IMG/VR virus record: IMGVR_UViG_3300020183_000040 | Location: 1 to 64,000 of that record | Source: a virus | Reading direction: 5' to 3' (one strand) | Length of the DNA stretch: 64,000 bases | Shown here: positions 2,907 through 64,000 of the stretch, one piece after another | How the letters are laid out: each line of letters starts with the position of its first letter | Position numbering within the stretch: the stretch's first letter is position 1 | Notes under the pieces: model-generated | The model's input: only the letters and a program-made list of their open reading frames with translations | The model's database searches: none | What the model was told of the DNA's origin: nothing | Program-made: the position numbers and the translations under genes

Positions 2907-2910
2907 AGAT

Positions 2911-3069
2911 ATGAAAAGATTTACCGTTAGCCTTCAAGAAGATGAATATGGAGATCTCATTCTACCAATTCCAGAAGAAGTTATCGATGACCTCGGATGG
3001 GAACTTGGGGATGAACTTCAATACATTGTAGATGGTGATACATTTCTTCTGAAAAAATATGAAGAATAA
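2911..3069 (+). CDS. SpoVT/AbrB-like small protein, 52 aa
   Basis: The core reads GDLILPIPEEVIDDLGWELGDELQYIVDGDTFLLKK. It has the pattern of a swapped-hairpin AbrB domain: 'vPIPeevl.eLGw..GDeL....dgd.i.lkk'. Such domains dimerise and bind DNA, as in AbrB and MazE antitoxins. Similar short proteins are known in T4-like cyanophages. No toxin partner is visible next door, so a transcriptional or structural role is more likely than a toxin-antitoxin pair. The start at 2911 (MKRFTV) is preferred to the in-frame ATG at 2884 inside the previous gene. Confidence 0.6.
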   Translation: MKRFTVSLQEDEYGDLILPIPEEVIDDLGWELGDELQYIVDGDTFLLKKYEE

Positions 3070-3102
3070 TTCAAATAACCTCTCCAGCGCGAATTCCAGA
3101 TT

Positions 3103-3390
3103 ATGACTAACCCTGACGACAACCCTAACACGAAACTGAGAGCACTACTGCGATATACTTCTAACAACGAAAATGAGTATGCCCACCGCGTTTCCTCTGA
3201 AGCAATACAAGCAATTATCAAAAGAGTGGTCGAGTTGGAAGAGAAAGTCAATGCGTTATCAAAGTGGTTAGATACGATTCATATTGCCCTTGTCTATAAG
3301 CCAGAGGGTGCAGAGAAGCATCTAAATATGGTAGAGAATTATAATGAAATTTATAGTCGTCTACGGAAATTAGAACATGAGCGGTTGTAA
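3103..3390 (+). CDS. Coiled-coil protein, 95 aa
   Basis: Residues about 30-60 (SSEAIQAIIKRVVELEEKVNALSKWLD) and 75-95 (YNEIYSRLRKLEHERL) have heptad-like spacing and suggest coiled coils. It is soluble. It overlaps the start of the large virion gene by 14 bases, so the two are probably translationally coupled. It could be a small virion or chaperone-like component; the family is not recognised. Confidence 0.55.
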   Translation: MTNPDDNPNTKLRALLRYTSNNENEYAHRVSSEAIQAIIKRVVELEEKVNALSKWLDTIHIALVYKPEGAEKHLNMVENYNEIYSRLRKLEHERL

Positions 3391-9982: not shown

Positions 9983-9996
9983 ATTTTCTTGATAAA

Positions 9997-21900: not shown

Positions 21901-24900
21901 AATATTGCAGATTCTCAAATTCAAGTAAATGATTTTGAAACTGCACTAGTATCAATCGATTCTACTTTCCCAGTAGGAGAATTTGTAAACAATCATGTTG
22001 TTGTCTACAATACTGCAACTGGAACAATCCAGAACAATGAGTATATTAGAAATTATAAATTTGACTATGGTAATGATACTGGTGTGTTTACTGTTGGAGA
22101 AACCGCTGAAATTCGTCAGCTTGCAATAAGAAATAGAGAAGGTGGGTATTTTACTGATGGTCAAATCATCAGAAGTGAAAATTCTAAAGCAGAAGTTCTT
22201 GGATTTGCTCCAGGTAGAAATATTGTCTATCTCGGTAAACAGGCAAGAAGTTCTTCAGCAGGAAAGGATTTCCATATCCCAACATTTTTTGGGAATGCCA
22301 AACTATCTACAGCACAGAAAAAATTCGGAGAATCATCTCTACTTCTAGATGGAAATGGAGATTATCTACAAATATCGCACCCAACAGAATTTGATCTAAC
22401 AACTTATACATTTGAAGCGTGGATTTATTTACCAACCACTCCAACTACTGAGTATTCGATGATATTTGCCAATGTCGGACAAAACTCGTATTGGGGACTC
22501 CGTACTGTTGCTGGAGTTACACGTCTGACTTCATATGATGGCAGTACCATCAATGAACAAACAACTGGAACTGGTATTCCATTGAATACTTGGACTCATG
22601 TTGCTTGGTCTAGGTCTGGTAGTACTATTAGAGCGTTTATGAATGGAGTAATCGTACACACTGGAACTAGCAACGCCACTCCAAATGTGACTGGAATTAC
22701 AATTGGTTATTCAGATAGTTATGCAAATCAATATTTCTTCAATGGATATATCGATGAAGTAAGAGTATCTAATACAAACATTTATGGACTTGCATTTACT
22801 CCTCCTTCTAATATTTTCCAAGGAGATAATAATACAAAACTACTACTTCATTTTGATGGTGCTAATAATGCAACAACCACTGATGATTGGTCTGGTGCAG
22901 CTAACTGGGCAAATGGGCAAGAATTTGTAAATAGTGGAATTCTATTCCGTTTTTATGATGCAGCAAATCAAATAGAAGATAATATAAATTTGATTGCTGC
23001 CGAAGCAGTATATCGTACAGATGTACATTTCCCCAAACTTCATATTCCAACAACAGTTGCTATCACTTATGGTAGTCAGTTCTATGATGTAATTCTTGCA
23101 AATCTAAACTTCATTGCTTGGGAAGCATATCAAAGAGTTTCTCCAACTCCTCCAACTGGAACAACAGCACAGGATTGTGTTGATGATGTAAAAGATGTTC
23201 TTCGTAGTTTAGCTTATAACATCAAACATGGATTCAATTCCAAAGTTTGGGATGCAGCAAAATTGTATGTAAACTCTGGTGCTATTCAACATCTAACTGG
23301 TCAAGTTACAAACTCTGTCAATGTATTCAATCAAGCGAGAAATATTGCAAAACAAATCATCAATAACACTACAGTAACCAAGCAAGGTTCTCATACTTAT
23401 ACACAAACAACAAATACTTCAATTCCATATGTTATTGGTGGATATACTACTGTTGAGAGCTCTATTGATTCTCTATTCAAGATTGTTACCGATACACTTC
23501 AAAATCCAGCTGGTACAAATAACACTACATATCCATCTTCTGTTGCTGTTCTTCCGAGAACACACCCACCACATACTCAGTGTATTGCTGATGTCACCCT
23601 CACTATCACTGAAATTCTAAAAGATATTAGAAATGGTGGTAATGAATATACCTGGGACGCAGCTTCTCTCTATGTCAACACTGGGGGATCCACAGCAACA
23701 CTCAATCATATTGTTGGTGAAGAAGCAGAGACTTCATATGCATATGACAGAGCAAGAGATATTTCTCTACTTGTAATGCGTGGACTTGAGGTTGGTATTA
23801 CTGGAGATCATGGTTTTACACAATTCATTGATACAACCATTACGGATGATCCTGCAAATCCAGTTTGTGCTGATGTTGCCAGTACAATCAATACTTTATT
23901 CGATATTGTAATTGATACAATTGATCTTGCATATACTTCTTCTGGAAATCATCTACTAACAGTACCTAGAACACAGGCAGCGTATGAATATGCATCTGGA
24001 ATAGTAGATGCATATAGATCCGACAGTTTTACAATTCGTTCTGTAAATAACACAACTAAAGACTTTTGGACTAATGAAATTAGTCCAGATACTCAGAGTC
24101 GTTACATAGATGCTGCAGATCTCATTGAAATCAATACTGAGGCTATTATTGATGAAACTTCGGGGAGGATGCTCGCTAGATATCCCGTACTCCTCACTGA
24201 GATGCCCCGTAACCAGGATGGAAGCGGTGCAGGTACAAATAGATGTAAAACTGATTTGACAATCCTTCTAGGCGCTCTAGTGAAGGACCTTAGATTTGGA
24301 GGTAATCGTTTTACTACTGAGGCAACAAAAAATTACTTAGGTGTAAATGATGAAATTAGGCATATTCGTTTACAACTTTGGGGATCTTTGTATGCACATG
24401 ATCAACTTGGTGAAATGTCAAAACTTGCAATCACTGGAGATCTAGCAGCTGTTGCACAATACACAGACTCTGTAATTGTATCTGATATTGGCATCACTCA
24501 GGATGCTGGCGGATGTGCTAATGTCAAGACAACGATTGACAATCTGATTCAAAATATGAATGACATTCTTGCTCCTACACCAGATAGGAATAAGGATGCT
24601 GCAGATCTACTCGTTTTCAATAGGAATTACATCGCAGAAGAAGCAATTGGTCTGCTTGAAGATGAATTCTTCTATACTCTAAGTAATGGACAAACATATC
24701 AGGCATATCAATATCCTGGTGGTAATGTTGATGGAAGAAACAAGTGTATTAGAGATGCAAAAAATATCATAGATGCAGTTGCTGCTGACCTACTAACAGG
24801 TGGAAATAATAGCATTCTTCTTGCTGTAGAAAAATATTTGACTGCTCAACTTGAAATTGATTACATTGAAGATCAACTTGGTGCAACTCTATATTCGTGG

Positions 24901-27900
24901 ACTAGAATTGCCTTCCTATGCAAGAAAGCAGTTGCTAACTTACTTCAGTCTGCTAATCAAATTGCACTGTCTACAAGTCATTATGTTGCTCAACATACGG
25001 ATAAAGCTGCATATACAGATCCAACGATTACTCATGATATTTCTTCTCCTGGTGGAAATTACAGTTCTGCAGACTGTGTAAATATTCAAGCTGCAATTGA
25101 TAACCTAATAAATGCAGCTATTGACACTCTTGCCCCTGGTGGAGATATTGCTATAAATGCATCAAGAATGATGCTTTTCAATAAAAACTATTTTGATAAG
25201 GAAATTGGTGAAGAAGTTACTAGACAATGGGGACAAATCACAACTGCTCAAAAAACATTTATTGAAGAAGTTGCTGATAATATCATTCATGATATTCTAA
25301 TCACTAAAGAAAGTGTACTTGATAATCAGACTACAGCGCAATATTCAAATGTTCAGACTTACAGAACCCTTAGAAGTTTACTCACACCTCTAAACACGAC
25401 TAATAATCAATTGAATTTGATCCCTGCAGCTCAGGTCGAACAAATTTCTGGAGGAACATGGACAAGCACTGGAAATACTGTATCTCTAAATGCATCTTCT
25501 GGTCCAGATGGAACTCTTACCGCAGATAAATTGATTCCTGGTACAACTGGCACAGATGAACGTGCTGTAAGAAGAAACTTTGTTTTGACTGCGTATACAA
25601 CCTATGATAGAGACAATGTAACGTTTGATAATGAATATGTCACTCTTGATCAGGGTGTTGACACTTCATATCAAACATATACTTGGTCTATATTCTTCAA
25701 AGAAGCTGGTTACTCTAATGCAAGAATTAGAGTTCAATGGGATGCAACTCACTTTGCATTTTTCAATATAAATCTAACAAATGGAGCACCAAGTGATGTA
25801 TTTGGAACTGGAATAACAGGACTGTCTACAGGAGTTATTCCACATGGAAATGGATGGTACAGGGCATTTATTACCTTTGATGTTCCATTTGGTGTTTCAT
25901 CAGTAGATCTATTTGCATATGGAACGGTGAATGCTTCAGTTACTGCTCCTGGTAATGGAACTAGCGGTGTTCTAATTTGGGGTGCTAAATTTGCTAAGAG
26001 TGGAATTGATATTTACACATCACAAGGAGGAACTCCTTTCTACCCAGATAATGATTATAATGTGAGAAATTATATTCTGGATAGACTTGAATTCTTTATG
26101 ACTAGAGCGATTTCGGGAACACTAATAACTCCATCTCCTCTAGCTACGTTCCCATCTTATACAAATACATCTATTCAATCTGGATATACAATTGCGGATA
26201 TCAATAAATTTATTGAGATACTAATCAATCAATACCAAGAACAACTCACAAACCCATCTTATTATCTTGTTATTGGTATTCAAAATGGACTAGTACTTCT
26301 ACCAAAAACTTATGGGACCAGAATAATCCCAGTTCCTTTGGGCGGAAAAATTGAACAATCTTCGTTTATCTATGGTGTTCTGTCTGATAGAAGTGCAGAA
26401 ATTGCAGGATATATTTTGAATGAAGCACAAGTTGCAAAAACTTATGTGAGGATGAGAATAAACGATATTGAGGATGGTCCATTTGTTGTCAACGACGACG
26501 TGGTTGCCGCTGGGAATCCAGGTATAACAGGAAAAATTTATGGATTCTACTCTGATGAAAACTTCAATTATCTTGATGTAGAAGTAACTGCTGGAACATT
26601 CAATATCAACTCTCGTATTGAAAGTGATGAGGGTGCTGAAGCTACAATTGTTGCTATTGAACCTCGCCTTCACGTCATTGGACTTCAAGGTGATTTTGCT
26701 GATGGAGTTCCATTCAAAGCATATACAAGTAACGTTACTGCAAATGTTGTAGATTTTATTAGATGTGAAGGAGCAGTTTTGAGTAATACTGGTGGAAAAC
26801 TAACTGTAGATACAGATTCTTTGACTGGTTCTTTTGAAACCAAGAGCGTTGTATTCCCACAAACATCAAGAATTTACCTAGATCTTATTCAATATAAAGG
26901 TCTTGTATTGAATGTCGGTGATATCATTGTTGCTGATGGTTATGTAAGATTCCAAGTTGCAGTAAACAATAATTTGTCAACTTTCCAAAGAGGTGGAACC
27001 TTATACGGAATTGTCAATGGCACTAAGGACACAAGTAGGAGAGCCATTATAGTAGATCTTGATCTCAACAATAATTACATATATGCTAAAACATATCTTG
27101 GACAATTTGCTAATGGTCAATCATTTGCTTATTACGGAGAGGTTGAGGGAGATCTTCCAGTTGGTTTTGCAACTATTGTAACCAATGTACCTGTTGCTGG
27201 TAATGCATCTGGTAGGATAGTAGATATCAAGCAAGTAGGAACTAAAACAAGAGTGTTCTTGTCTGATGTAAGAGGAACCTGGACTATTAGAGAGACCGTG
27301 GCTGGTAGGGCAGGATATGGTGCTGCAGTTTTTGATACTAAGACTATCAAAGGAAGAATCAAGCGTGCATTCCGTGGATTTGATGGCGTGCAAACGGAGT
27401 TCAACCTCACAACTGCCAATGGAACTCCATACTTCCCAGATCCAGATGGGCATATGTTGATCTTTATCAACGGTATTCTACAACCTCCAGGTGCAGGCAA
27501 CGCTTATAGTGCATTCTCAAATGTACTTTCGTTTAGTGAACCACCTGAAGTTGGAGATGCATTTGTTGGATTCTATCTAGGAAAACTACGCCAATTGGAT
27601 GACATTTCCTTTGAATTTGATTCTCTACGTCAATCATTCAACCTGAGACGTTCTGGAATCTTCTATTCTCTAACTCTTACCGATGGTGTACAATCTTCCG
27701 TGATTAGACCAGAAAATAATATCATTGTTTCTCTAAATGGTGTTATTCAAGAACCTGGCATTGGATTTACTCTTGTTGGTTCTCGTATTATCTTTGGTGA
27801 AATTCCTAGAGTAGGATCTACATTCGTTGCATTCTCTTATGTTGGTTCTGAAGGTGACGTTGACTCGGAAACTGTTGTTCCACCAATTGAACCTGGTGAT

Positions 27901-43674: not shown

Positions 43675-46600
43675 ATGGCAAATAGAATCCAACTAAGACG
43701 TGGCGGTTCACAGGAATGGAGAAACGCTAACCCAGTGCTCGCACAGGGTGAAATTGGTATCGACCTAGACTCGGGAAGAATAAAAATTGGTGATGGTACA
43801 ACTGCATGGAACTCTCTTGCATACGAAAGACCTGTAGAGTCCGTTGCTAACACCGCTAACTCCCTAGTACAGAGAGATGCTGATGGAAACTTTGCTGCTG
43901 GTGTTGTCACAGCAACTTTGATTGGTAACGCTTCTACAGCATCTCGTCTAACAAACATTCGTCAATTTCAACTCACACAAGATGTTATTGCCTCAGGTGT
44001 TTTTGACGGATCTGCAAACCTAAACCTTTCAGCACAACTTCAAACAATATCTACGCTTCCCCATTATGATGGGACAACTTCATCTCAAGGTACATATACA
44101 AAACTAGTTGTTGATGCTAAGGGTAGAATTATCAATGCTTCAAGTCCAACAACTATTCAAGCATATGGTTTAGATACTCAAATTGAAGGTACTGGCGCTC
44201 AACCATTTGATAATGACTTGAGGGCTGTTTCTCAACTTACTACTACTGGTATTGCAATTCGTGGTGGTGATGGTCAGTGGACTACAAGAAGTATTCTCTC
44301 AACTGCTGGTCAAATTGTAATAACCAATGGTTCTGGTACTGGTGGTAACCCACAAGTTGACCTTGCAACAACAACAGTAGTAAATGGAAATTACAATACA
44401 GAATCTCTAACATCAGTAAGTGCTGTAGGACCATTAGGAGAACCATTTGGAACTCAGACGGTAAATACGGTAAAATATACTGTCGATAATAGAGGTAGGC
44501 TACAGTCTTCTACCAATGTCCCTATTGCAACAGCAACTGAAGGTAGTAAGTATCCTGCATACGAAGCATCTACTGTATATGCAAGATATGACATCATCGA
44601 AACGGGCAATAATGTTTACCAAGCAATTAGGGCAATCGCTGCGGGCGGTGGTGCTCCTGCTCATACTAGTTCCAGCGATACTGGAGGGTGGAGATATCTC
44701 GCGGCTGCGGCAATCGAACAGAAAGGATTGGCCTCGTTTGCACAGGAGGATTTTGATGTAGATTCAAATGGACATGTTACAATTGCTGCACTTGGTGTAG
44801 ACAATACTCAACTTCAAAATAATAGAATTTCATTTGCTGATGGAACTACAAAAGAAGATTTTGAGCTTGATCAAGAACTAACTGCAAACACGGGATACCG
44901 TGGATTCAACTACCTCAATTATGTAAAAGTAAATGATACTAGTGGTTCTCTTCTCTTTACTGCTAATAATACTGCAAATTCTGGTGCTGGCGGTGTTGAC
45001 ATCAATGTTGATACTAACATCAGTGGCGCCAATATCATTCTTGATCGCCCTGGTACATCTCCTCTCCAAACTATTGAGCGTACTGCAGGGGACCTCAGGA
45101 TCCACCATAACGTCTCTTCTACCGTCAATAGAACTCTTGATATTATCAGCAATAATGCTGGTACTGGTGACGCCACCATCAATATCACTGCTGACAACGA
45201 TGTTGTCATTACCAGTACAACAGGGACCAACTACGTCAAAGTAGAAGATATTTGGTTTAGAGCAAATGCAATAACATCAAATAACTCTACGATTATTATT
45301 GATCCAGTAACTGAAGGCGATAACACTGGTACAGTTCAAATCAAAGGAAATCTACAAATTGATGGCATTACGACCACAGTAAATAGCACTACTGTAACTA
45401 TTGATGATCCAATCATTACACTTGGTGGAGATTCTGTTCCTACTGTTGACGATAATAAAGATCGTGGTGTAGAATTTAGATATTATGATTCACAGGCTCG
45501 TCTAGGATTCTTTGGGTGGGATGATTCTTATGCTACTCTTGCAGGTACTACTGGTGGCTATCGTTTTCTATATGATGCCACAAACGCATCGGAAGTCTTT
45601 TCTGGGACTGATGCTGGTGTCATTGCTGGTAATCTTGCTCTTACCAGTAATGTGGATTCCTCTAGTGCTACTTCTGGCACTCTTGTTGTTACTGGTGGTG
45701 TAGGAATTTCTCAACAACTGAGAGTTGGTGGAAACGCTACAATTTCTGGTAATACTTCAATTTCTGGAACTCTTACAACAACTCTTGATAGTACATTCAA
45801 TAGAAGTGTAACAATTGTCGGTTCTGATACTGCAGCAACAGAACTATTCAAGATTCAAAATGGATCTGCTGTAGACAAATTTACTGTAGATTCTGCAACA
45901 GGTAATACCACGATTCAAGGCACTCTTGGTACTACTGGTGCTACAACACTTAGCTCAACCTTAGGAGTTACTGGTGCAACAACACTTACTGGTAATCTAA
46001 CAACCCAATCCGCATCTACAGTCAATATCCAAAATACTGCCAATAGCAATGTCAATAGTGCTATTGCAGGTACTGCATATGCTTCTCTTGGAACTTATGG
46101 TGCTCTCAAAGTTGATGGCGGAGCTTCAATTGCAAATAGTTTAGTTGTTGGTGGTTCATTCAAAGTATATGGACAGTTCGATGTAGATGGTGCTGTAAGC
46201 TACAGTGGCAACACCGTTTTCAAAGGTAATGTTTCTATCGACAACGATGGTGTATCACCATTCAAGTTCAATATTTCATCAAGCACAGCAAGACTTGATA
46301 GTATTGGACAAATTGTAACTACTAATGCTACCGATTCAACAACAACTTCTACTGGTGCTGTTATTGTAACTGGTGGTGTAGGCATCGGAGCACAACTTAG
46401 AGTTGGTGGTGCAGCAACCATCACTGGTAATACTTCGATAACTGGTGCTCTTGCAGTAACTAGTAATACAACTCTTACTGGAAACTTGGTTGCTAATGGC
46501 TCTGCAACCCTAGGTGATGCAGCTGCAGATACCCTGACGGTAAACGCTACATCGACCTTCAACGCCCCTGTAACGGTCTCCTCGTCACAGGCAACAAGTT

Positions 46601-49600
46601 TGGGTGGCACACTGACTGTAACCGAGCTTACAACCCTGAATAGGGGTCTTACACTGCAAGGTAGTACAACTGCAGCATCCGAGTTCTTCAGGATTACTGA
46701 TGGAGCTGGAACTCCTGTAACTAAATTTCTGGTTGACTCTGCAACAGGTAATACTACTATCGAAGGTTCAGTTGGAATTACTGGTGCAACAACACTTTCA
46801 AGCACTCTATCTGTTACTGATAATGTAACTCTAAACAAAAACGTAACAATCGTTGGTTCTAACACTGCTGCGACAGAACTATTCAAGATTCAAAATGCAT
46901 CTGCTGTAGACAAATTTACTGTAGATTCTTCCTCTGGTAATACAACTATTGCAGGTACTGCAACTATCACCAGTGCAACTCAAATCAATAGCACTCTCGG
47001 TGTGACGGGTGTTACTTCACTGACAAATACAACTGAGCAGACTCTAACTGGAGCAGCTTACACTGCTGATGGTTCTGTTAGACTTACTGGTGGTCTTGGA
47101 GTTGCTAAAAACCTAGCGGTTGCTGGTAGTATGAGAGTCTTTGGAAACTTTGAAATCACTGGTAGTACTACACAGTCTGGTAACACTGGATTCAGTGGTA
47201 GAGTATCCATTTCCAATACTGATGATATTACCACTTTTGGTGATACTACAGTCTCCCTATCTACGACTGGTGGATTTAGAGCAACTAGAAATGCTTATAT
47301 TGGTGGTGATTTTTATGTCTGGGATAATACAAATTCTAGAGTTGCTTTTGGTGTCACTAATTCAACTGGCGCTGTATCAACACATGGTAATCTAACAGTA
47401 GGTGGAAACCTAATCGTAAATGGAACTACAACTACTGTAAACTCAACAACAATTACAGTTGATGATCCAATCATTACTTTGGGTGGAGATACTGCACCTA
47501 CATCTGATGATAATAAAGATCGTGGTGTTGAATTTAGATATTTTGATTCACAGGCTCGTCTAGGATTCTTTGGATTTGATGATTCATCCAATGAATTTAT
47601 TTTCCTAACTGGTGCTACAAATACAAACGAAATTTATTCTGGAACTGACGGAACACTTCGTGCTGGTAGTATTAGAGTTACTGGAGCAAGTGGTACTACT
47701 TTTACTGTAGATAGTAACGCAACAATTACTGGTACAACAACTTCAACCAGATATATTTCAACTACTACTACACTTGCTCCGCTAACTGTAAACTCAACAA
47801 CTAAAGTTACAAACTTGAATGCAGACCTTCTCGATGGTCTAGACACATCATCTTCAGATACAACTGGAAATAGTGTTGTATCAAGATCGTCTGGTAATTT
47901 CAGTGCTAATATTATTACAGTTGCTACTGGTACTGGTGCAGGTGCTGGTATTCAAGGTAATGCTCTTACTGCAGATACTCTCAAGACTGCTCGTACAATT
48001 ACAGTTGCTGGTGTTGTAGATGGATCTGTTTCATTCAATGGATCTTCCAATGTAACAATTACAACTACATTCAACGATGCTGATATCACCGCTCTTGCAG
48101 CGATGGCAGGAACTGGCATTGTCACTAGAACTGCAGCAAATACATATGCTCAGCGTACAATTGTTGCTTCTCCATCTACTGGTTCTGGTATTACTGTAAC
48201 CAATGGTGATGGTGTTTCTGGAAACCCAACGATCAACATCCTATCTTCCGCATCAAACTCTGCAAATAACCTGGTTCTTCGTGGTTCTAGTGGAGAATTT
48301 TCTGCTGGTGCAATTACTGCAACATCTCTCACATCCTCTGGTGCTCTTTCTGTTACTGGCATTACTACTCTCAATGGAGTACTCAATGCTAATGGTGGTA
48401 TTGCTGTTGATGGAACTAGATTTACAGTTGCAGATGCAACTGGTAATACATCGATTGCAGGAACTCTTGGTGTTACTGGTGCCACAACACTCAGTTCAAC
48501 TCTTGGAGTTACTGGTGCTACAACACTCAGTTCAACTCTAGGTGTTACTGGTGCAACCACACTCAGTTCAACCCTAGGGGTCACTGGTGTTACTACTCTC
48601 GCTGGAGTACTCAATGCTAATGGTGGTATTGCTGTTGATGGAACTGCATTTACAGTCGCAGATACAACTGGCAACACTTCTATTACTGGTACTTTAGCAG
48701 TTACTGGAACATCTACATTTACTGGGGCGCTTACAGCAACTGGAGGAGTTGTAGGTAACTCTTCTACGGCAACTACTCTTGCAACAGCAAGAACGATTGC
48801 AATTTCTGGTGATGGCACTGGTACAGCAACATCATTCAACGGATCTGCAAATATTACAATTCCGTTTACACTAGCAACGCAAACTGGTCTTACCGCTGGA
48901 GCTTATACAAAGGTAACAGTAAGCACTAAGGGTCTTGTTACTGCAGCTACACAAGCAGTTACAACTGATATTGCTGAAGGAACTAATCTATATTATACAA
49001 ACGCTCGTGCCGATGCTCGTATTGCACTACAAACTGGTGCAAACCTAGATCTTTCACAAAAGACAACTACTAATCTAACAGAGGGGACTAATCTATACTA
49101 CACGAATGCTCGGGCAGATGCTCGTATTGCATTACAAACTGGTGCGAATCTAAACCTTGCACAAAAGACAACTACTAATCTAGCTGAAGGTACTAATCTA
49201 TATTATACAAACGCTCGTGCTGATGCTCGTGTTGCACTGCAAACTGGCACAAACCTAGATCTTTCACAAAAGACAACTACTAATCTAGCTGAAGGTAATA
49301 ATCTATACTATACACAAGCAAGATTTGACACTGCATTTGGTAATAAAACAACAACAAGTCTAACTGAAGGCACTAACCTATACTATACAGAAGCAAGAGT
49401 ACAAAGTAAACTTGATGACGCATTTGCTCAATTGCAAGCAATGCTGGATAATCTAAGTACATCTACAACACTTATGCTCAATCTATCTGGTGATCCAACT
49501 CCTGGAGTTGTACTAGCTCTCGGAGGACTCATAGATAATGGTGGTGGTGGATTTGTTTCTGCTGGCACTAATGTAGCAACAACCTCTAGTACTGGCACTG

Positions 49601-50169
49601 GTCTTACAGTAAATACTACAGTTTCTGGAGGAGTCATTACTGGTGTTGCAATCAACCAGGCAGGTTCAGGTTACTTGATTGGAGATTTGATCACTATCCA
49701 AAATCCAAACGAAGGTGGTGTTCTTGCATTCGACTTTACAAGCTTTTCCGCAGGTAATGGATATGTAACTGCAACTGGAGTTCCAACTACGCCTACTGGT
49801 GCATCAGCTGGTACTGGATTGACTGTAAACATTACCGCCCTAAACGGAAACGTTACTAACGTGACTATTGCTAACCCAGGCATTGGATATGAACCAGGAG
49901 ATACGATTTTGATCAATCAGGATGGATCTGATCAGGATGCAACTATTGGCATTGCAACTATAATGACAGACGCCAAATTTACACTAGCAGATATTAGAAC
50001 AATGGAAATAGGTGCAACACTTACAGGAGCTACTAGTGGAACTACTGGCATTATTTCAGCACTGGGTGCCGACAACGTGCTTTTGCATTCTGTTGATGGA
50101 TTCTTCAAAATTGGAGAAACTGTTGGCGCTAATGATGTTACAACTCTAACAATCACTTCATTCTCATAA
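43675..50169 (+). CDS. Long tail fibre protein with Mtd-like N-terminus, 2164 aa
   Basis: The likely role is host recognition. The N-terminus (ANRIQLRRGGSQEWRNANP, then LAQGEIGIDLDSGRIKIGDGTTAWNSL) is the Mtd/hyaluronidase-type fibre N-terminal domain that begins many phage fibres. The shaft is built of repeats: two paralogous copies of a 'TTVNSTT(V/I)T(I/V)DDPIITLGGD...DRGVEFRYYDSQARLGFFG' block (nt about 45360-45600 and 47420-47640), many 'GVTGATTLSSTL' turns, and five 'EGTNLYYTNAR' repeats near residues 1768-1908. The C-terminal 200 residues hold GSGY modules and a 'GATSGTTGIISALG' module, and no separate tip or chaperone domain is recognised. A late promoter lies upstream. Confidence 0.85.
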   Translation: MANRIQLRRGGSQEWRNANPVLAQGEIGIDLDSGRIKIGDGTTAWNSLAYERPVESVANTANSLVQRDADGNFAAGVVTATLIGNASTASRLTNIRQFQLTQDVIASGVFDGSANLNLSAQLQTISTLPHYDGTTSSQGTYTKLVVDAKGRIINASSPTTIQAYGLDTQIEGTGAQPFDNDLRAVSQLTTTGIAIRGGDGQWTTRSILSTAGQIVITNGSGTGGNPQVDLATTTVVNGNYNTESLTSVSAVGPLGEPFGTQTVNTVKYTVDNRGRLQSSTNVPIATATEGSKYPAYEASTVYARYDIIETGNNVYQAIRAIAAGGGAPAHTSSSDTGGWRYLAAAAIEQKGLASFAQEDFDVDSNGHVTIAALGVDNTQLQNNRISFADGTTKEDFELDQELTANTGYRGFNYLNYVKVNDTSGSLLFTANNTANSGAGGVDINVDTNISGANIILDRPGTSPLQTIERTAGDLRIHHNVSSTVNRTLDIISNNAGTGDATINITADNDVVITSTTGTNYVKVEDIWFRANAITSNNSTIIIDPVTEGDNTGTVQIKGNLQIDGITTTVNSTTVTIDDPIITLGGDSVPTVDDNKDRGVEFRYYDSQARLGFFGWDDSYATLAGTTGGYRFLYDATNASEVFSGTDAGVIAGNLALTSNVDSSSATSGTLVVTGGVGISQQLRVGGNATISGNTSISGTLTTTLDSTFNRSVTIVGSDTAATELFKIQNGSAVDKFTVDSATGNTTIQGTLGTTGATTLSSTLGVTGATTLTGNLTTQSASTVNIQNTANSNVNSAIAGTAYASLGTYGALKVDGGASIANSLVVGGSFKVYGQFDVDGAVSYSGNTVFKGNVSIDNDGVSPFKFNISSSTARLDSIGQIVTTNATDSTTTSTGAVIVTGGVGIGAQLRVGGAATITGNTSITGALAVTSNTTLTGNLVANGSATLGDAAADTLTVNATSTFNAPVTVSSSQATSLGGTLTVTELTTLNRGLTLQGSTTAASEFFRITDGAGTPVTKFLVDSATGNTTIEGSVGITGATTLSSTLSVTDNVTLNKNVTIVGSNTAATELFKIQNASAVDKFTVDSSSGNTTIAGTATITSATQINSTLGVTGVTSLTNTTEQTLTGAAYTADGSVRLTGGLGVAKNLAVAGSMRVFGNFEITGSTTQSGNTGFSGRVSISNTDDITTFGDTTVSLSTTGGFRATRNAYIGGDFYVWDNTNSRVAFGVTNSTGAVSTHGNLTVGGNLIVNGTTTTVNSTTITVDDPIITLGGDTAPTSDDNKDRGVEFRYFDSQARLGFFGFDDSSNEFIFLTGATNTNEIYSGTDGTLRAGSIRVTGASGTTFTVDSNATITGTTTSTRYISTTTTLAPLTVNSTTKVTNLNADLLDGLDTSSSDTTGNSVVSRSSGNFSANIITVATGTGAGAGIQGNALTADTLKTARTITVAGVVDGSVSFNGSSNVTITTTFNDADITALAAMAGTGIVTRTAANTYAQRTIVASPSTGSGITVTNGDGVSGNPTINILSSASNSANNLVLRGSSGEFSAGAITATSLTSSGALSVTGITTLNGVLNANGGIAVDGTRFTVADATGNTSIAGTLGVTGATTLSSTLGVTGATTLSSTLGVTGATTLSSTLGVTGVTTLAGVLNANGGIAVDGTAFTVADTTGNTSITGTLAVTGTSTFTGALTATGGVVGNSSTATTLATARTIAISGDGTGTATSFNGSANITIPFTLATQTGLTAGAYTKVTVSTKGLVTAATQAVTTDIAEGTNLYYTNARADARIALQTGANLDLSQKTTTNLTEGTNLYYTNARADARIALQTGANLNLAQKTTTNLAEGTNLYYTNARADARVALQTGTNLDLSQKTTTNLAEGNNLYYTQARFDTAFGNKTTTSLTEGTNLYYTEARVQSKLDDAFAQLQAMLDNLSTSTTLMLNLSGDPTPGVVLALGGLIDNGGGGFVSAGTNVATTSSTGTGLTVNTTVSGGVITGVAINQAGSGYLIGDLITIQNPNEGGVLAFDFTSFSAGNGYVTATGVPTTPTGASAGTGLTVNITALNGNVTNVTIANPGIGYEPGDTILINQDGSDQDATIGIATIMTDAKFTLADIRTMEIGATLTGATSGTTGIISALGADNVLLHSVDGFFKIGETVGANDVTTLTITSFS
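48469..48612 (+). repeat. 36-base tandem repeat in the fibre gene
   Basis: Three near-identical 36-base units (48469-48504, 48505-48540, 48541-48576) plus a diverged fourth, each encoding GVTGATTLSSTL. They are flanked by two copies of a 'NANGGIAVDGT.FTVAD' segment. The units differ mostly at third codon positions, so unequal crossing-over could change fibre length in frame. Confidence 0.85.
48976..49398 (+). repeat. 105-base tandem repeat (EGTNLYYTNAR) in the fibre gene
   Basis: Units start at 48976, 49081, 49186 and 49291, exactly 105 bases apart; the last full unit is shortened to 75 bases before a fifth copy at 49366. Each encodes EG(T/N)NLYYT(N/Q/E)AR and a trailing 'LQTG.NL.L.QKTTTNL' segment. 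This repeat is widespread in phage fibres. Confidence 0.85.
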
Positions 50170-52140: not shown

Positions 52141-52973
52141 TGTTAGGAAATTATTTTTATCATTCAATTATTCGTAAAACAGTTGTTGCTTTTGGAACAC
52201 TATTCAACAACATTGAAATTCGTCGTCAAAACGAAGTTATGAAAGTGCCGCTTGCTTATGGACCTACAGATAAGTTTTTGGCAAGATTGAATCAAAATCC
52301 AGATCCTACTAATAAAAGAGTTCAAATTACTCTGCCAAGAATTTCGTTTGAAATGACAAACATTGATTATGATCCTTCTAGAAAAGTAGCACCAACAAAT
52401 AAAATAAAAATTCCAAATGCAGATGATGATTCTAAGACTGCATACATGCCAGTTCCATATAATCTAGAATTTGAATTAGGTATTATTGCAAAATCTCAAG
52501 ATGATTCTTTACAAATCATTGAACAAATTCTCCCATACTTTCAACCACATTTCAATCTCAGTATCAAATTGATTGAGGATATCAATGAGATTCGTGATAT
52601 TCCAATTACACTCAATAATATTAGTTACGAAGATAGTTATGAAGGAGAGTTTGCTACTCGCAGAGCTCTAATTTATACTCTGAAATTTACTGCAAAGACA
52701 TATCTTTATGGTCCTGTTATCGATGCTCCAACTATCAAGAAAGCAATCGTTGATAGTTACACATCTATGGAGCAAATAACTGCTCCTCGTGTCACCAGAT
52801 ATACAGTTACTCCAAAGGCAAAGGTTGATTATAATAACGATGGATCTATAAATGCTTCTGATGATCCATTTACAGATCCAGATGATGATTTTGGATTCAA
52901 CGAATTATTTGCAACGTTCCAAGACAATAAAAAACGTAATCCAGTGACAGGATCTGATGAGGATATCCCATGA
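52140..52973 (+). CDS. 15: Tail terminator / sheath stabiliser gp15
   Basis: gp15 caps the tail tube and sheath and joins the head. MLGNYFYHSIIRKTVVAFGTLFNNIEIRR, YGPTDKFLARL and RVQITLPRISFEM are strongly gp15-like, and the length (277 aa) is close to T4 (272). The C-terminal 60 residues are acidic and contain a DYNNDGSINASDDPF segment that resembles a calcium-binding dockerin/EF-hand loop (D.N.DG.I...D). It overlaps gp16 by four bases. Confidence 0.92.
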   Translation: MLGNYFYHSIIRKTVVAFGTLFNNIEIRRQNEVMKVPLAYGPTDKFLARLNQNPDPTNKRVQITLPRISFEMTNIDYDPSRKVAPTNKIKIPNADDDSKTAYMPVPYNLEFELGIIAKSQDDSLQIIEQILPYFQPHFNLSIKLIEDINEIRDIPITLNNISYEDSYEGEFATRRALIYTLKFTAKTYLYGPVIDAPTIKKAIVDSYTSMEQITAPRVTRYTVTPKAKVDYNNDGSINASDDPFTDPDDDFGFNELFATFQDNKKRNPVTGSDEDIP

Positions 52974-53398
52974 CTACATTTGATGGACTAAATGATGTGT
53001 TTGGAACAGAACCAACAGAAGTAAAAAAATATGAAGATCAAAAAATGATTGTGAAAAAAAGTGAGCATGTTGATGTTCGCCAAGACTATGAAATCACTCG
53101 TGCTCAACTACATAATCTTGTTATGAAAGGGCAGGAGGCTGTTGATGGGATACTTGATGTAGCGCGGTCATCAGATCATCCTCGTGCTTATGAAGTTGCT
53201 GGTCAACTTATCAAAAGTGTTGGAGATGTAGCTGATAAACTTTTAGATCTTCAGAAAAAAATGAAAGATCTTGATGATGAACCAAAGAAAGGTCCAAGCA
53301 ATGTAACTAATGCCCTGTTTGTCGGTAGCACTGCAGAATTGCAAAAGCTACTAAAACAGCAAAATAGAATAAATAATACAGAACAAGAAGGCGTCTAA
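52970..53398 (+). CDS. 16: Small terminase subunit gp16
   Basis: gp16 recognises DNA and stimulates the packaging motor. The 142-aa protein (T4: 164) has an acidic N-terminus and a long helical centre (DYEITRAQLHNLVMKGQEAVDGILDVARSSDHPRAYEVAGQLIKSV, two helices) typical of the gp16 oligomerisation hairpin. It ends with KGPSNVTNALFVGSTAELQKLL. The order 13-14-15-16 supports the call. Unlike in T4, about 3.5 kb of other genes separate it from gp17. Confidence 0.85.
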   Translation: MTTFDGLNDVFGTEPTEVKKYEDQKMIVKKSEHVDVRQDYEITRAQLHNLVMKGQEAVDGILDVARSSDHPRAYEVAGQLIKSVGDVADKLLDLQKKMKDLDDEPKKGPSNVTNALFVGSTAELQKLLKQQNRINNTEQEGV

Positions 53399-53400
53399 TC

Positions 53401-53676
53401 ATGTCAAGAAGAATTATTGTGCAAAATAGTGAGGTAACTCTCAGTACAGCTACTAATCTAAGTAAGGCAAGATTGGTAAGAGTGTTGAACGATACCGCTG
53501 CAAGCATTGTTCTAACGATTGATGATGCTGCACAGGCAGCTGCTAGAGAAGATTACGATACAAAAGGTTCTAGAACTATTACAGTTGGATCACTAGAAAC
53601 TATCTATCTTGAGAAAGAACCATTGGAAACTATCAGTGGTTCTGGACTAAAATGTACAGCAATTGCAAGACAATGA
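53401..53676 (+). CDS. Small beta-rich protein, 91 aa
   Basis: The start is MSRRIIVQNSEVTLSTATNLSKARLVRVLN, followed by beta-rich sequence ending GLKCTAIARQ. It is soluble and resembles small cyanophage proteins of unknown function found near the neck genes. It begins two bases after gp16 and overlaps the next start (ATGA), so it belongs to the neck/terminase operon. It is possibly a head decoration or neck-associated protein; that is inference. Confidence 0.6.
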   Translation: MSRRIIVQNSEVTLSTATNLSKARLVRVLNDTAASIVLTIDDAAQAAAREDYDTKGSRTITVGSLETIYLEKEPLETISGSGLKCTAIARQ

Positions 53677-54974
53677 AAACATTTTCCGAGTTTATGGCAG
53701 AGGGTAATCCTACCGCTCGTATGCTTCACAAATCAAAAACTCAAGTCACAGGGCACATCTCTGCCGATCGTGGCGATGATGAAAGTGCAAATCGTACAAA
53801 GCGCAAATCACTTGAGAAAGATCTAAAGAAGCATGGTATTGGGCATCAGAAGGGTGTAGGTGAATACAAATATTCTTCTGGTGAGGGCACTGGTAGAGAG
53901 GTTTCCTATCAAACATCTAAACCAGATAAAATGTCTAAGCGTAGATTTGGAAAGGTAATGCGTCGTCTTGGTCGTAAGCATGGTCAAGAATCTGTTATCA
54001 CAAAAGATTCCAACAAACCTGCTAAACTACATTATACTGATAAAGGATCTAAATCAACATCTGACACTATTGGTCATAGTAAATCAGGTAAGCACCCAGA
54101 AGGATATGGGGAAACTTCGGGCACTAAAGTTCGTGGTTCTAAACTTCCTAAGAAAACCACTAAGTCTGCTTATCACTACGAAGAATTTGTTGAAGAGGGA
54201 TTGAGAAAAAGACTTGCTGCTGGTGCATTAGCTGCCGCAGCTGCAGTTGGATCTGGCGGTGCGGCAAAAGCAGGTCATCATCATGGTGAGGTTCATGTTC
54301 GTCATGGTTCTACTCCTGCAACTGCCACTCATCATTCTGTAGCAAGTGCAGTTGATAAGGCACTTGCAAATAAAGATAGTAGTGGTGGAAAGGAGTTTCA
54401 TTCTGCATCTCATGAGAAGGGCAAAACTGGAACAACTGTTCATGGAAAGTATGAGTATTCTGCTTCTGGCGGTTCAGATAATAAAAAAGCAACAGAGGCT
54501 CCTAAACCAAAACGAGGAGAAGATTCTCGTAAACGTGGTAAGCATGATCCGTCAAGGGGGTCAGCGCCAGCAGTTCGTTCTACAACACATAGTCCTGAGC
54601 GAGATCGAGCTCAGCATGGTGATCGGGGCAATGGCAATGGTCATCGGAGCAATGGTAGTGGCGGTGACCGTGGCGGCGGATCAACTTACCGTATGAGCAG
54701 TTATATTCCTTCCTTTGGAGACTTCATGTCGGAAGGAGAAGCTTGGACTAGAAAGGAGGGTCAGAATAAAAATGGTGGTCTCAACGCAGCAGGTCGCGCA
54801 TCTTACGAAAGAGCAAATCCTGGATCTGATCTCAAGGCACCTTCAAAGAAGGTTGGAAATCCCCGCAGGGCGTCATTCTGTGCCAGAATGAAAGGAATGC
54901 GTAAAAGACAAAAGGATAGTAACAACACTGGCGAGGACCGTCTATCGAAATCGCTTCGTGCGTGGAATTGTTGA
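53673..54974 (+). CDS. Candidate internal head polyprotein with three capsid-targeting-like motifs, 433 aa
   Basis: The start MKTFSEFMAEG closely resembles the capsid-targeting sequence of T4 internal proteins, which is cut by gp21 after Glu. Two further motifs occur inside: YEEFVEEG (residues 169-176) and FGDFMSEG (348-355). Cuts after E10, E175 and E354 would release pieces of 165, 179 and 79 aa. Piece 1 is Lys/Gly-rich with RFGKVMRRLGRKHGQE. Piece 2 begins with an Ala-rich helix, then His-rich and Arg/Gly/Ser-rich disordered sequence. Piece 3 (AWTRKEGQ, NPRRASFCARMKGM, LRAWNC) matches what I recall as DUF6321. All pieces are very basic, as suits DNA-associated internal proteins. Processing is inferred. 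Confidence 0.65.
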   Translation: MKTFSEFMAEGNPTARMLHKSKTQVTGHISADRGDDESANRTKRKSLEKDLKKHGIGHQKGVGEYKYSSGEGTGREVSYQTSKPDKMSKRRFGKVMRRLGRKHGQESVITKDSNKPAKLHYTDKGSKSTSDTIGHSKSGKHPEGYGETSGTKVRGSKLPKKTTKSAYHYEEFVEEGLRKRLAAGALAAAAAVGSGGAAKAGHHHGEVHVRHGSTPATATHHSVASAVDKALANKDSSGGKEFHSASHEKGKTGTTVHGKYEYSASGGSDNKKATEAPKPKRGEDSRKRGKHDPSRGSAPAVRSTTHSPERDRAQHGDRGNGNGHRSNGSGGDRGGGSTYRMSSYIPSFGDFMSEGEAWTRKEGQNKNGGLNAAGRASYERANPGSDLKAPSKKVGNPRRASFCARMKGMRKRQKDSNNTGEDRLSKSLRAWNC

Positions 54975-56916: not shown

Positions 56917-58572
56917 ATGTCAGCAAGTGATTCGATATATCTTGGTAATCCAAATCTAAAGAGGGCAAATATTACTCAGGAATTTACTAATGAACAAATT
57001 AGTGAATTTGCTAGGTGTTACAATGATCCTGTATATTTTATTAGAAAATATGTAAAGATTGTTTCTCTTGATGAAGGTCTTGTTCCTTTTGACATGTATG
57101 ATTTCCAGCAAGAAATGGTATGGAAATTTCATAACAACAGATTCAATATTGCTAAACTTCCTAGACAGTCTGGTAAATCTACGATTGTAACATCATACCT
57201 TTTGTGGTATGTCATTTTCAATGACAACGTAAACGTTGCAATTCTTGCAAACAAAGCAGCTACTTCTCGTGAGATGTTGCAGCGTCTACAAAGATCATAT
57301 GAAAATTTACCTAAGTGGTTGCAGCAGGGTATCGTTCAGTGGAACCGAGGAAGTATTGAACTAGAAAATGGTTCTAAAATCATGGCAGCATCGACCTCTA
57401 GTTCTGCTGTCCGAGGTATGTCATTCAACATCATCTTCCTAGACGAGTTTGCGTTTGTTCCAAACCACATCGCAGATGAATTCTTTAGTTCTGTATATCC
57501 TACCATTTCTTCTGGTCAGAAAACAAAAGTTATTATTATTTCTACCCCAAAGGGTATGAACATGTTCTATAAACTTTGGCATGATGCTGAACGTAATAAG
57601 AACGAATATGTAACTACAGAAGTTCATTGGACAGAAGTTCCTGGTAGAGACGCTACTTGGAAAGCACAGACTATTGCTAACACTTCAGAATCTCAATTCC
57701 GTGTTGAATTCGAGTGTGAATTTTTAGGATCTGTCGATACACTAATTTCTCCATCTAAACTTAGAACTCTAGTTTATGATGAACCGATTACTCAAAATAA
57801 AGGGTTATCTGTATACCATGGATCACAACCAGAACATAATTATACTATTTGTGTTGACGTTGCAAGGGGTGTAGCAAATGATTACTCAGCATTTACCGTT
57901 ATTGATACTACTACTATCCCATACAAATTAGTCGCAAAGTATAGGAACAATGAAATCAAACCTATTATCTTCCCAAATATTATTGTTGACGTTGCTAAAA
58001 ATTACAATCATGCATACATCCTTGTTGAAGTCAATGATGTTGGCGGGCAAGTAGCAGATATTATTCAATATGATTTAGAGTACGAAAACCTCCTAATGGC
58101 ATCAATGCGAGGACGAGCTGGTCAAATTGTTGGTCAGGGATTCTCTGGTAAAAAAACCCAAATGGGGGTAAAAATGTCATCTGCTGTGAAAAAAGTTGGT
58201 TGCCATAATCTTAGAGCACTGATCGAAGAAGATAAACTAATAGTAAATGACTATGATATTATTTCAGAACTTACTACATTTATTGAAAAGGGTCAGACAT
58301 TTCAGGCAGAAGAAGGATGTAATGATGACCTTGCTATGTGCTTGGTAATTTTTTCTTGGTTGGCTCTACAACCTTACTTCAAAGAGATGCATGACGATGA
58401 TGTTCGTCAGAGAATTTACGAGGATCAAAGAGAAGCAATTGAAGAAGATATGGCACCGTTTGGGTTTATGGATGACGGATTGAGTTCAAATCAATTTGTT
58501 GATGCAGAGGGAGAAGTGTGGCATACCGATGAATACGGTGATAAAGCGTATATGTGGGAGTATCTTAGTTGA
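56917..58572 (+). CDS. 17: Large terminase subunit gp17
   Basis: gp17 is the packaging ATPase and headful nuclease. Seen in the 551 residues: Walker A RQSGKST (83-89), Walker B IIFLDEF (Asp176, Glu177), coupling motif ISTPKG (208-213), and a nuclease domain with CVDVARG (Asp314), LVEVNDVGG (Glu371) and CNDDLAM (Asp470/471). These match the acidic triad of T4 gp17. T4 gp17 has 610 aa; the N-terminal part before Walker A is shorter here. It docks on the gp20 portal. Confidence 0.95.
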   Translation: MSASDSIYLGNPNLKRANITQEFTNEQISEFARCYNDPVYFIRKYVKIVSLDEGLVPFDMYDFQQEMVWKFHNNRFNIAKLPRQSGKSTIVTSYLLWYVIFNDNVNVAILANKAATSREMLQRLQRSYENLPKWLQQGIVQWNRGSIELENGSKIMAASTSSSAVRGMSFNIIFLDEFAFVPNHIADEFFSSVYPTISSGQKTKVIIISTPKGMNMFYKLWHDAERNKNEYVTTEVHWTEVPGRDATWKAQTIANTSESQFRVEFECEFLGSVDTLISPSKLRTLVYDEPITQNKGLSVYHGSQPEHNYTICVDVARGVANDYSAFTVIDTTTIPYKLVAKYRNNEIKPIIFPNIIVDVAKNYNHAYILVEVNDVGGQVADIIQYDLEYENLLMASMRGRAGQIVGQGFSGKKTQMGVKMSSAVKKVGCHNLRALIEEDKLIVNDYDIISELTTFIEKGQTFQAEEGCNDDLAMCLVIFSWLALQPYFKEMHDDDVRQRIYEDQREAIEEDMAPFGFMDDGLSSNQFVDAEGEVWHTDEYGDKAYMWEYLS

Positions 58573-61661: not shown

Positions 61662-63314
61662 ATGTCTCAACTCTTTGGATTTTCTATCGAAAGAGCAAAG
61701 AAGGTCCCCAAAGGACCTTCTTTTGTTCAGAAAGATAACCTCGATGGCACAATGCCAGTCGTAGGTGGTGGTTATTATGGTTATGCAGTTGACTTTGATG
61801 CAACTGTCACTAATGATTGGGAACTAATTTCTCGTTATAGAGAAATGATTCTTCAACCAGAATGTGATAGTGCAGTTGATGATATTGTAAATGAAACAAT
61901 TTGTGGTAATTTTGATGATGTTCCTATTGAAATTGAACTGAGTAATCTCAAAGTATCAGATAAAATCAAGAAATTGATTAGAGAAGAATTTGATGAGATT
62001 ATTCGTTTACTAGATTTTGAAAATAGATCATACGAAATTTTTCGTAGATGGTATGTTGATGGACGACTTTTCTTCCATAAGGTTATTGATCCAAAAAATC
62101 CTTCTGGTGGTATTATCGAACTTAGATATGTCGATCCAAGAAAAATTAGAAAAGTAAAAGAAGTAGAAAACAAACCAGTCGAAAGAGCTGCTGGTATAGA
62201 CGAAGCTCTTTCTCAAAAATCGGTTGAGTATTACATCTACCATCCGAAAGGTTTGAAAGCAATGAGTAATATCGGGCAAGGTGCTGGGCAACAGCAAGGA
62301 TTGAGAATTGCTTCCGATTCTATTTGCTACGTGCATTCTGGTATCATGGATTTGAATAAAAACATGGTGCTTTCACATTTACATAAAGCAATCAAGTCTG
62401 TAAATCAACTCCGCATGATTGAAGACTCTCTTGTAATTTACCGTTTGTCTCGTGCTCCAGAAAGAAGAATTTTCTACATTGATGTGGGTAATCTACCTAA
62501 GCAAAAAGCAGAACAATATCTGCGTGAAGTTATGGGTAGATATCGTAATAAGCTGGTTTATGATGCACAAACTGGCGAAATCAGAGATGATAAAAAGTTC
62601 ATGTCGATGCTTGAAGACTTTTGGCTTCCTCGTCGTGAGGGTGGTAGAGGAACGGAAATTACTACTCTCCCTGGCGGGCAAAATCTGGGTGAATTGGAAG
62701 ATGTCAAATACTTCCAAAAGAAACTCTATAAAGCATTGAATGTTCCTGAGTCAAGGATGGAAACAGAACAAACATTCAACATTGGTCGTGCTGCTGAAAT
62801 CACTCGTGATGAAGTAAAATTTCAAAAATTTGTTGCAAGACTTCGTAAAAGATTCTCGGAACTTTTTACTGATATCCTGAAGACTCAACTAGTTTTGAAA
62901 GGTATTATCTCCATTGAAGAATGGGATCAAATAAAAGAGCATATTCAATATGATTATGTTGCTGACAATTACTTTACAGAACTCAAGGAAATTGAAATTA
63001 CTAATGAAAGAATGAATATGGTAAACACCATGGATCCTTTTGTTGGTAAGTATTTTTCAATTGAGTATATTCGTCGTCAAGTTCTAAAACAAACTGATAG
63101 ACAGATACTGGAAATTGATGAACAAATTGAATCTGAAATGCAAGATGGACTTATCCAAGATCCAAATGCAATGGATCCAACAATGATGGGTGGGGCACCA
63201 CCTGCTGATCCAGGTGCAGCAGTAGATCCATCAAACCCTGCTGGCGGAGATGAACAATCTTTATTCTCCAAAGCAGATATTGATGCAGAAGATAAGAAAA
63301 TTTCTAAATTCTAA
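61662..63314 (+). CDS. 20: Portal protein gp20
   Basis: gp20 forms the dodecameric portal that starts head assembly and docks the terminase. The centre (IYRLSRAPERRIFYIDVGNLPKQKAEQYL, YRNKLVYDAQTGEIRDD, FWLPRREGGRGTEITTLPGGQNLGE) is the most conserved region of the T4-like portal and the usual target of cyanophage g20 surveys. It is 550 aa, against 524 in T4. The C-terminus is Pro/Ala/Gly-rich and acidic. It lies just before a gp67-like gene. Confidence 0.96.
   Translation: MSQLFGFSIERAKKVPKGPSFVQKDNLDGTMPVVGGGYYGYAVDFDATVTNDWELISRYREMILQPECDSAVDDIVNETICGNFDDVPIEIELSNLKVSDKIKKLIREEFDEIIRLLDFENRSYEIFRRWYVDGRLFFHKVIDPKNPSGGIIELRYVDPRKIRKVKEVENKPVERAAGIDEALSQKSVEYYIYHPKGLKAMSNIGQGAGQQQGLRIASDSICYVHSGIMDLNKNMVLSHLHKAIKSVNQLRMIEDSLVIYRLSRAPERRIFYIDVGNLPKQKAEQYLREVMGRYRNKLVYDAQTGEIRDDKKFMSMLEDFWLPRREGGRGTEITTLPGGQNLGELEDVKYFQKKLYKALNVPESRMETEQTFNIGRAAEITRDEVKFQKFVARLRKRFSELFTDILKTQLVLKGIISIEEWDQIKEHIQYDYVADNYFTELKEIEITNERMNMVNTMDPFVGKYFSIEYIRRQVLKQTDRQILEIDEQIESEMQDGLIQDPNAMDPTMMGGAPPADPGAAVDPSNPAGGDEQSLFSKADIDAEDKKISKF
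61697..61724 (+). terminator. Terminator-like perfect hairpin inside the start of gp20
   Basis: AAAGAAGGTCC (61697-61707) pairs perfectly with GGACCTTCTTT (61713-61723) around a 5-base loop CCAAA, followed by another T. It lies 36 bases into gp20 and encodes KKVPKGPSF. It has the shape of an intrinsic terminator or attenuator, but translation would normally open it. Confidence 0.5.
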
Positions 63315-63339: not shown

Positions 63340-63651
63340 ATGTCTAAAAGTGCTAGTGAAATAGTTGATCAAATTTTTTCTGGAGATAAAGTTTCTGCAT
63401 TAGATTCAATTGATAGTGCGTTACAATCTCGGGCATATGACTTGATTCAGCAAACAAAACATGAATTTGCTAAGCAATGGGGTTTTGAACTTGATCAAAC
63501 TGGTCAAGCAGTTGCTGATGAACTTGAAGATACTTTGCCTGATGGTACGGATGCTCCTCAAGATTATGAATTTGATGGTCGAATGCCCCATGAAGCCCCA
63601 GATGATGAAGTAACACCAGAAGAGGAAAACGAAAATGAAACTGATCTCTGA
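63340..63651 (+). CDS. 67: Prohead core protein, gp67-like
   Basis: 103 aa, with SKSASEIVDQIFSGDKVSALDSIDSAL at the start and a strongly acidic end (APDDEVTPEEENENETDL). Its position between gp20 and gp21 and its acidic, helical character match T4 gp67, a scaffold-core component degraded by gp21. T4 gp67 has 80 aa. Sequence similarity is low, so the name rests on context. It overlaps gp21 by 17 bases. Confidence 0.65.
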   Translation: MSKSASEIVDQIFSGDKVSALDSIDSALQSRAYDLIQQTKHEFAKQWGFELDQTGQAVADELEDTLPDGTDAPQDYEFDGRMPHEAPDDEVTPEEENENETDL

Positions 63652-64000
63652 GCAAATTGTAGACGTAAAATTTATTGCCGAAGAAGTAGAAGGTAAAAAA
63701 AATTACTTCATCGAAGGTATTTTTCTACAAGGAGAAATCAAGAATCGTAATGGAAGACTGTATCCAATGAGTGTTTTGGATAGAGAAGTTGCTAAATATG
63801 ATGAAAACTTTATCCAGAGTGGTCGCGCCCTTGGCGAACTTGGTCACCCTGATGGTCCATCTTTGAACCTAGATAGAGTTTCACACAAAATTATGCACCT
63901 CAAAAAAGAGGGAACCAACTATGTTGGTAGAGCAAAAATTTTGGCAACTCCCATGGGACAAATTGCAAAGAATCTTCTAGACGAAGGTATCAAACTTGGA
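63635..64000 (+). CDS. 21: Prohead core protease gp21, N-terminal part (runs off the window)
   Basis: gp21 is the serine protease that matures the prohead, cutting scaffold, capsid and internal proteins. 122 residues are visible: NYFIEGIFLQGEIKNRNGRLYP and GRALGELGHPDGPSLNLDRVSH, in which His71 of GELGHPD is the likely catalytic histidine of the family. The serine and rest of the triad lie beyond the edge. The ATG at 63635 lies inside the gp67-like gene. Confidence 0.93.
   Translation, partial: MKLISEQIVDVKFIAEEVEGKKNYFIEGIFLQGEIKNRNGRLYPMSVLDREVAKYDENFIQSGRALGELGHPDGPSLNLDRVSHKIMHLKKEGTNYVGRAKILATPMGQIAKNLLDEGIKLG

Follow-up and report, generated by a model that had tools for sequence, protein, structure and literature searches.

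The open reading frame (ORF) at positions 53673 to 54974, plus strand, raises the question of why a single protein of 433 aa should carry the leader of a T4 internal head protein three times. It lies in a window of 64,000 nucleotides, the whole stretch of DNA that was analysed, which is the start of an 85,186-base virus record. The original prediction, made from the letters alone, was of an internal-head polyprotein cut by gp21 into a leader and three basic proteins. The observation behind it is confirmed, and comparison with related sequences partly supports the interpretation. The reading favoured here, with a probability of about 0.73, is a gp21-processed, leader-punctuated capsid cargo polyprotein whose products, a SAM lyase and a pair of basic proteins, would be delivered together with the DNA; the cutting, the ejection, and the activity are predictions.

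The contig is that of a T4-like, cyanophage-type virus encoding its own gp21-family protease. The ORF sits between the plus-strand genes for a gp16-like small terminase subunit (52970 to 53398; PF11053, E 3.8e-9) and a gp17-like large terminase subunit (56917 to 58572; PF03237 and PF17289), and its start codon and the stop codon of the preceding ORF overlap within the four bases ATGA. Further downstream on the plus strand are a gp20-like portal protein gene (61662 to 63314; PF07230, E 7e-190) and the gene for the gp21-like prohead protease (PF03420 Peptidase_S77, E 1.4e-33), the 5' part of which is at 63635 to 64000 and which continues to record position 64279, beyond the window. The record also carries, downstream of the ORF, genes for a gp22-like scaffold protein and for the gp23 major capsid protein. 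This T4-like head-gene setting with its protease supports the original prediction.

The locus has its closest relatives among the Kyanoviridae, T4-like cyanophages. Some part of the 433-aa protein is matched in 513 of 50,697 phage records, with coverage above 80% in none. A near-identical contig (L014; 99.94% over 8.5 kb) has the same ORF intact, with 431 of 433 residues in common, and in a diverged contig (L097; 88% over the aligned 392 bases of the gene) the second and third parts of the protein are fused in frame. The fusion of the parts is thus not an assembly slip.

The N-terminal leader, MKTFSEFMAE (53673 to 53702, plus strand; predicted cut E10/G11, the slash here and below marking the cut position or its counterpart), has the residues and spacing of the T4 IPII and IPIII leader, with 7 of 10 residues identical. 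In the T4 record both of these proteins start MKTYQEFIAE/A, with the cut after the leader Glu as in PMC9026906. The mutagenesis of T4 IPIII, as presented in that paper, assigns residues 4 and 7 mainly to targeting and residues 8 and 10 to processing, and an Asp at residue 10 blocks processing and not targeting. These four residues are present three times in the 433-aa protein, as FSEFMAE/G, YEEFVEE/G, and FGDFMSE/G, with spacing identical to that of T4 (F4-F7-M8-E10; Y169-F172-V173-E175; F348-F351-M352-E354). The motifs end at E10, E175, and E354, with G next in each case. Leader 2 (54177 to 54197, plus strand; predicted cut E175/G176) follows immediately on the natural end of part I (AYHY), and leader 3 is at 54714 to 54734 on the same strand (predicted cut E354/G355). 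The recurrence that had been reported at residues 169-176 and 348-355 is exact and falls at the junctions of the parts.

Chance does not readily produce such an arrangement. The pattern [FYW]xx[FYW][ILMV]xE, which comes from the T4 mutagenesis, is found 3 times in the protein against a mean of 0.006 in 50,000 shuffles of it, none of which gave two or more. The 63 predicted plus-strand proteins encoded by the 85,186-base record, 26,725 aa in total, contain it 5 times, 3 of them in this ORF. The narrower [FYW]xxF[ILMV]xE[GA], which was fitted to the three sites, has 3 occurrences in the 63 proteins, all in this ORF, to which it is also confined in a six-frame scan. The leader expression misses the starts of T4 IPI and Alt, where the exact spacing is absent, so that leaders are undercounted.

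Two features of T4-type internal head proteins are present: a leader with an aromatic residue at position 4, F at 7, a hydrophobic residue at 8, and E at 10, and a gp21-family protease in the same virus. Each T4 protein, by contrast, has a single leader and gives a single product. With three leaders in one chain, the 433-aa protein is therefore a variant of the class and not a plain member; on sequence grounds it represents a modified form of the T4 internal-protein system, of which many cyanophages have a simpler version.

Part I (residues 11-168; 53703 to 54176, plus strand) contains a SAM-lyase-like domain, which adds to what was originally predicted. PF23780 matches at residues 29-136, with profile scores of 30.6 and 33.0 bits, both above the curated cut-off of 28. 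For an AlphaFold model made with 23 sequences (pLDDT 69, pTM 0.64), SAM lyases rank first in a Foldseek search against the PDB, at E about 1e-3. VIA-align gives the model a Z of 10.8 to the T3 SAM lyase (8bb1, 7ock) and of 8.8 and 8.3 to the phage SAM lyases 6znb and 6zm9, the next unrelated structure being at 7.4. A PDB sequence search with part I, as a single sequence and as a profile, found no SAM lyase, and the homologue in cyanophage S-CREM2 matches the T3 SAM lyase at E 0.008. The alignment of the T3 SAMase to part I goes via this homologue. In Svi3-3, according to PMC7877911, the SAM site is lined by G56, Y58, E69, Q104, and E105, of which E69 is critical. The corresponding residues of part I are G63, Y65, E76, Q105, and E106. 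All five are identical in 23 of 23 aligned sequences, and the spacing of G-x-Y, the E 11 residues further, and Q-E is kept in part I and in all 23. By its model and alignment, part I has the SAM-lyase fold with all five examined active-site residues kept, as in the T3 SAMase and Svi3-3, and would be expected to degrade SAM. As an enzyme it would probably destroy a metabolite that the host uses in marking and restricting foreign DNA. The T3 SAMase differs in being the first protein made after infection, and the passage describing it does not present it as head cargo.

Part II (residues 176-354; 54198 to 54734, plus strand) is basic and belongs to no family, with no match in Pfam or PHROGs. Its first residues are basic and then Ala-rich and hydrophobic, and a low-complexity stretch rich in His, Gly, and Arg follows. 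One search returned one weak phage match and another returned six viral loci, and in two other contexts (L094/L095 and L098) part II stands behind SYEEFIEE/G. Part III (residues 355-433; 54735 to 54971, plus strand) is DUF6321, as had been suggested, since PF19846 matches at 364-431 with 75.7 bits against a curated cut-off of 28.5. Its model consists of small helices (pLDDT 83, pTM 0.50), for which Foldseek found no match in the PDB at E of 10 or below, although a new fold is not implied by this. The three products, predicted at 165, 179, and 79 aa and at about 18.3, 18.4, and 8.7 kDa, are basic as claimed, with computed pI values of 9.97, 10.08, and 10.75.

Two side observations concern part II. 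It opens with GLRKRLAAGALAAAAAVGSGGAAKA (54198 to 54272), which is signal-peptide-like and would be exposed only upon a cut at the second site. In a scan of the collected loci, a leader followed by a hydrophobic start was found only in the window protein (L010), in the part II relative L094, and in one ORF of L170. An 834-aa hypothetical protein beside a cytidylyltransferase in S-8S53 (2593-5097; L179) shares a part II stretch without a leader.

By analogy with T4, the leaders would dock the polyprotein to the prohead scaffold core. During head maturation the gp21-like protease would cut after E10, E175, and E354. This would remove the 10-residue leader, and three small basic proteins would remain next to the DNA: the putative SAM lyase, the unclassified part II, and the DUF6321 protein. 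All three would be ejected with the genome. Part I may then immediately deplete the new host of S-adenosylmethionine, so that SAM-dependent restriction and methylation would be blunted, an effect that the T3 SAMase has once it has been produced in the cell.

The strongest competitor to this mechanism, although it seems rather unlikely, is that packaging goes through leader 1, which would also be the only site cut. The inner motifs would then be remnants of the fusion of leader-bearing genes, and the virion would contain a single uncut protein of three domains, resembling the polyvalent proteins. Multi-domain injected proteins of that kind are known, and the N4 virion RNAP is packaged unprocessed, according to the relevant passages of PMC5512222. 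There is a Met seven residues before leader 3 and one near some inner part I leaders. Separate leader-bearing genes for parts I and III also exist in relatives. A separate part I gene starts with the leader MKTFSQFMAE/G in one locus (L016), and separate part I genes with a longer leader such as MRTFQEFLQLCE/G are present at 15 of 30 loci examined. DUF6321 ORFs with 28 or fewer residues upstream of the domain have an M..F/Y leader start in 30 of 33 cases, counted by eye, with the last leader Glu 1-3 residues before the domain. The expectation that relatives would hold all three parts as separate leader-bearing genes is thus upheld for parts I and III; for part II no separate gene was found among the relatives, and it occurs there only within larger ORFs.

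Remnants should decay, and against this the border site is intact in every one of 120 part I instances amid fast-changing upstream sequence. Part I is internal in most relatives. With the search anchored on the downstream domain only, all 120 have [ILMVFA]xE-G just upstream, 86 of them with the exact leader spacing; the other 34 mostly have two additional residues between F and E. Distinct contexts with 245 aa or more upstream number 56; every one has a full leader within the 35 aa preceding part I, and none has one in the six windows of the same size that come before. Across 26 representatives the anchor positions are conserved and the residues between them are variable. The expression used for this entropy profile required E-G, which puts E at 26 of 26 by construction, and the repeat without the requirement gave the 120 of 120. 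The DUF6321 border shows [LIVMF]xE no more than 5 residues from the domain in 43 of 56 non-redundant contexts, whereas other bins of 5 residues contain it in 1-6 of the 56. Two kinds of border thus seem to exist, full leaders that would serve for both docking and cutting and bare LxE sites that would only be cut.

Leaders inside proteins are not a peculiarity of this contig. In 111 representative proteins, drawn from 326 ORFs, 56 leader patterns are present, 46 of them internal, against a mean of 1.85 and a maximum of 8 in shuffled sequences. Multi-module proteins with internal leaders, which the original prediction did not foresee, occur commonly in cyanophages. Only the window protein has as many as three full leaders, and one other of the 111 has two. 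Some cases count against the border rule. The junction of part I with DUF6321 in L015 lacks a canonical site, and site 3 of L094/L095 is FGEFIAD/S, with D replacing E. As an observation apart, the L094/L095 lineage may have kept docking and lost cutting at site 3, since Asp there blocks the processing of T4 IPIII and not its targeting.

It was also considered whether recombination occurs at leaders in general. This is not claimed, as most homology breaks fall elsewhere than at full leaders. HSP breakpoints in the 111 representatives are hardly enriched near full leaders (0.024 against a random mean of 0.016), and there is a modest excess near LxE sites (0.321 against 0.225, random maximum 0.252).

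Part III, and perhaps part II, could instead be made separately from internal translation starts, without any cutting. An in-frame ATG at 54693 (M341) precedes leader 3 and is kept in L097 and L094. By eye, however, the 30 bases upstream of this ATG show no AGGAG-like site, and the 30 bases upstream of leader 2 contain no ATG; such starts are improbable.

Virion proteomics of cyanophages bears on the predicted packaging of the cleaved polyprotein. Table 3 of PMC10665884 lists 52 of 219 S-CREM2 proteins as detected in CsCl-purified virions, including gp6, annotated as a SAM hydrolase, with 19 unique peptides. This protein starts MKDFDSFLEE, matches the SAM-lyase family at E 2e-19, and is the one place in S-CREM2 matched by a query of the leader and part I. 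It is a homologue of these (35% identity and E 8e-15 in a single comparison) that differs in its length of 414 aa and in having other sequence after the lyase domain. The same table lists gp137 (4 peptides, 4.1% coverage), the DUF6321 protein in the gp16-gp17 gap and so at the same locus as the window ORF, and gp136 (8 peptides), which starts MQTFSMFFSE. In S-CREM2 the leader pattern starts in the first 30 residues of five annotated proteins, gp6, gp12, gp14, gp71, and gp154. By that table 4 of the 5 are virion-detected, compared with 52 of 219 overall (hypergeometric 0.012), and with the leader at residue 4 the figure is 3 of 3 (hypergeometric 0.013). It is improbable that the motif is a scaffold- or DNA-binding element without a link to proteolysis in a protein acting in the infected cell and not the virion, a reading that draws on most relatives being annotated hypothetical and that has against it both this detection rate and a leader spacing that is that of the T4 CTS. 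One record label counts against packaging, since SSM1_115, the DUF6321 protein of the same locus in S-SM1, is labelled hypothetical although the S-SM1 virion proteome was measured.

A Cas9-like nuclease, an APH-like kinase, and a cytidylyltransferase were also seen to bear the T4-type leader pattern (S-CREM2, OR473000, gp12, gp14, and gp154; L296 and L297). The leader starts within the first 30 residues in each, and all are virion-detected in the PMC10665884 data consulted; the leader would explain their packaging. In another observation, small basic proteins of other sequence at L290 and L291 have the same MRTFQEFLDICE leader as the part I of P-SSM2 type, so that this leader is common to unlike cargoes.

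The nearest known system is that of T4 IPI, IPII, IPIII, and Alt, whose CTS leaders are cut by gp21. The likeness extends to the leader residues and spacing of IPII and IPIII, to small basic proteins, and to a gp21-family protease in the same virus. In the portion of PMC12373910 that deals with them, T4 Ip1-3 are alike in the leader only and each blocks a different GmrSD restriction enzyme. An anti-restriction role, likely for part I, therefore fits this class of proteins, although part I would be an enzyme of a different family. The virion SAM hydrolase of S-CREM2 was likewise proposed to enter with the DNA and counter restriction, in passages of PMC10665884 that do not mention a leader or processing. 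Polyvalent proteins such as P1 DarA and DdrB resemble the window protein in being multi-domain and carried in the head, some of them proteolytically processed. They differ in having other domains and, in the account of PMC5512222 consulted here, in that the processing of DdrB is attributed to its own peptidase domain. In SPN3US, as described in the relevant part of PMC10052503, the prohead protease cuts one head protein at several x-x-E sites, like the fate proposed here; there the additional cuts break up propeptides, whereas here each fragment would be a conserved module. No description of tandem-leader head polyproteins was found among openly licensed papers searched by title or by the start of the abstract.

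If the cutting is confirmed, the window protein would be a polyprotein version of T4 internal-protein loading. The leader, inside proteins as well as at their starts, would then be a simple rule for finding virion-delivered cyanophage effectors, and would explain the presence of a SAM hydrolase, a kinase, a Cas9-like protein, and a cytidylyltransferase in a cyanophage virion. A broader and quite tentative idea is that leader-tagged polyproteins serve cyanophages as a general cargo train, in which phages exchange modules behind a border that combines a dock with a protease site. One late gene could in this way load several effectors at a fixed ratio, and cutting, by baring the start of part II, could send it to a membrane of the host only after head maturation.

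Elsewhere in the window, positions 9973 to 28518 hold a single, unusually long ORF of 6181 codons with a TTG start. A 2164-aa ORF at 43675 to 50169 has repeated TLGVTGATTLSS-type units and is perhaps a tail fibre.
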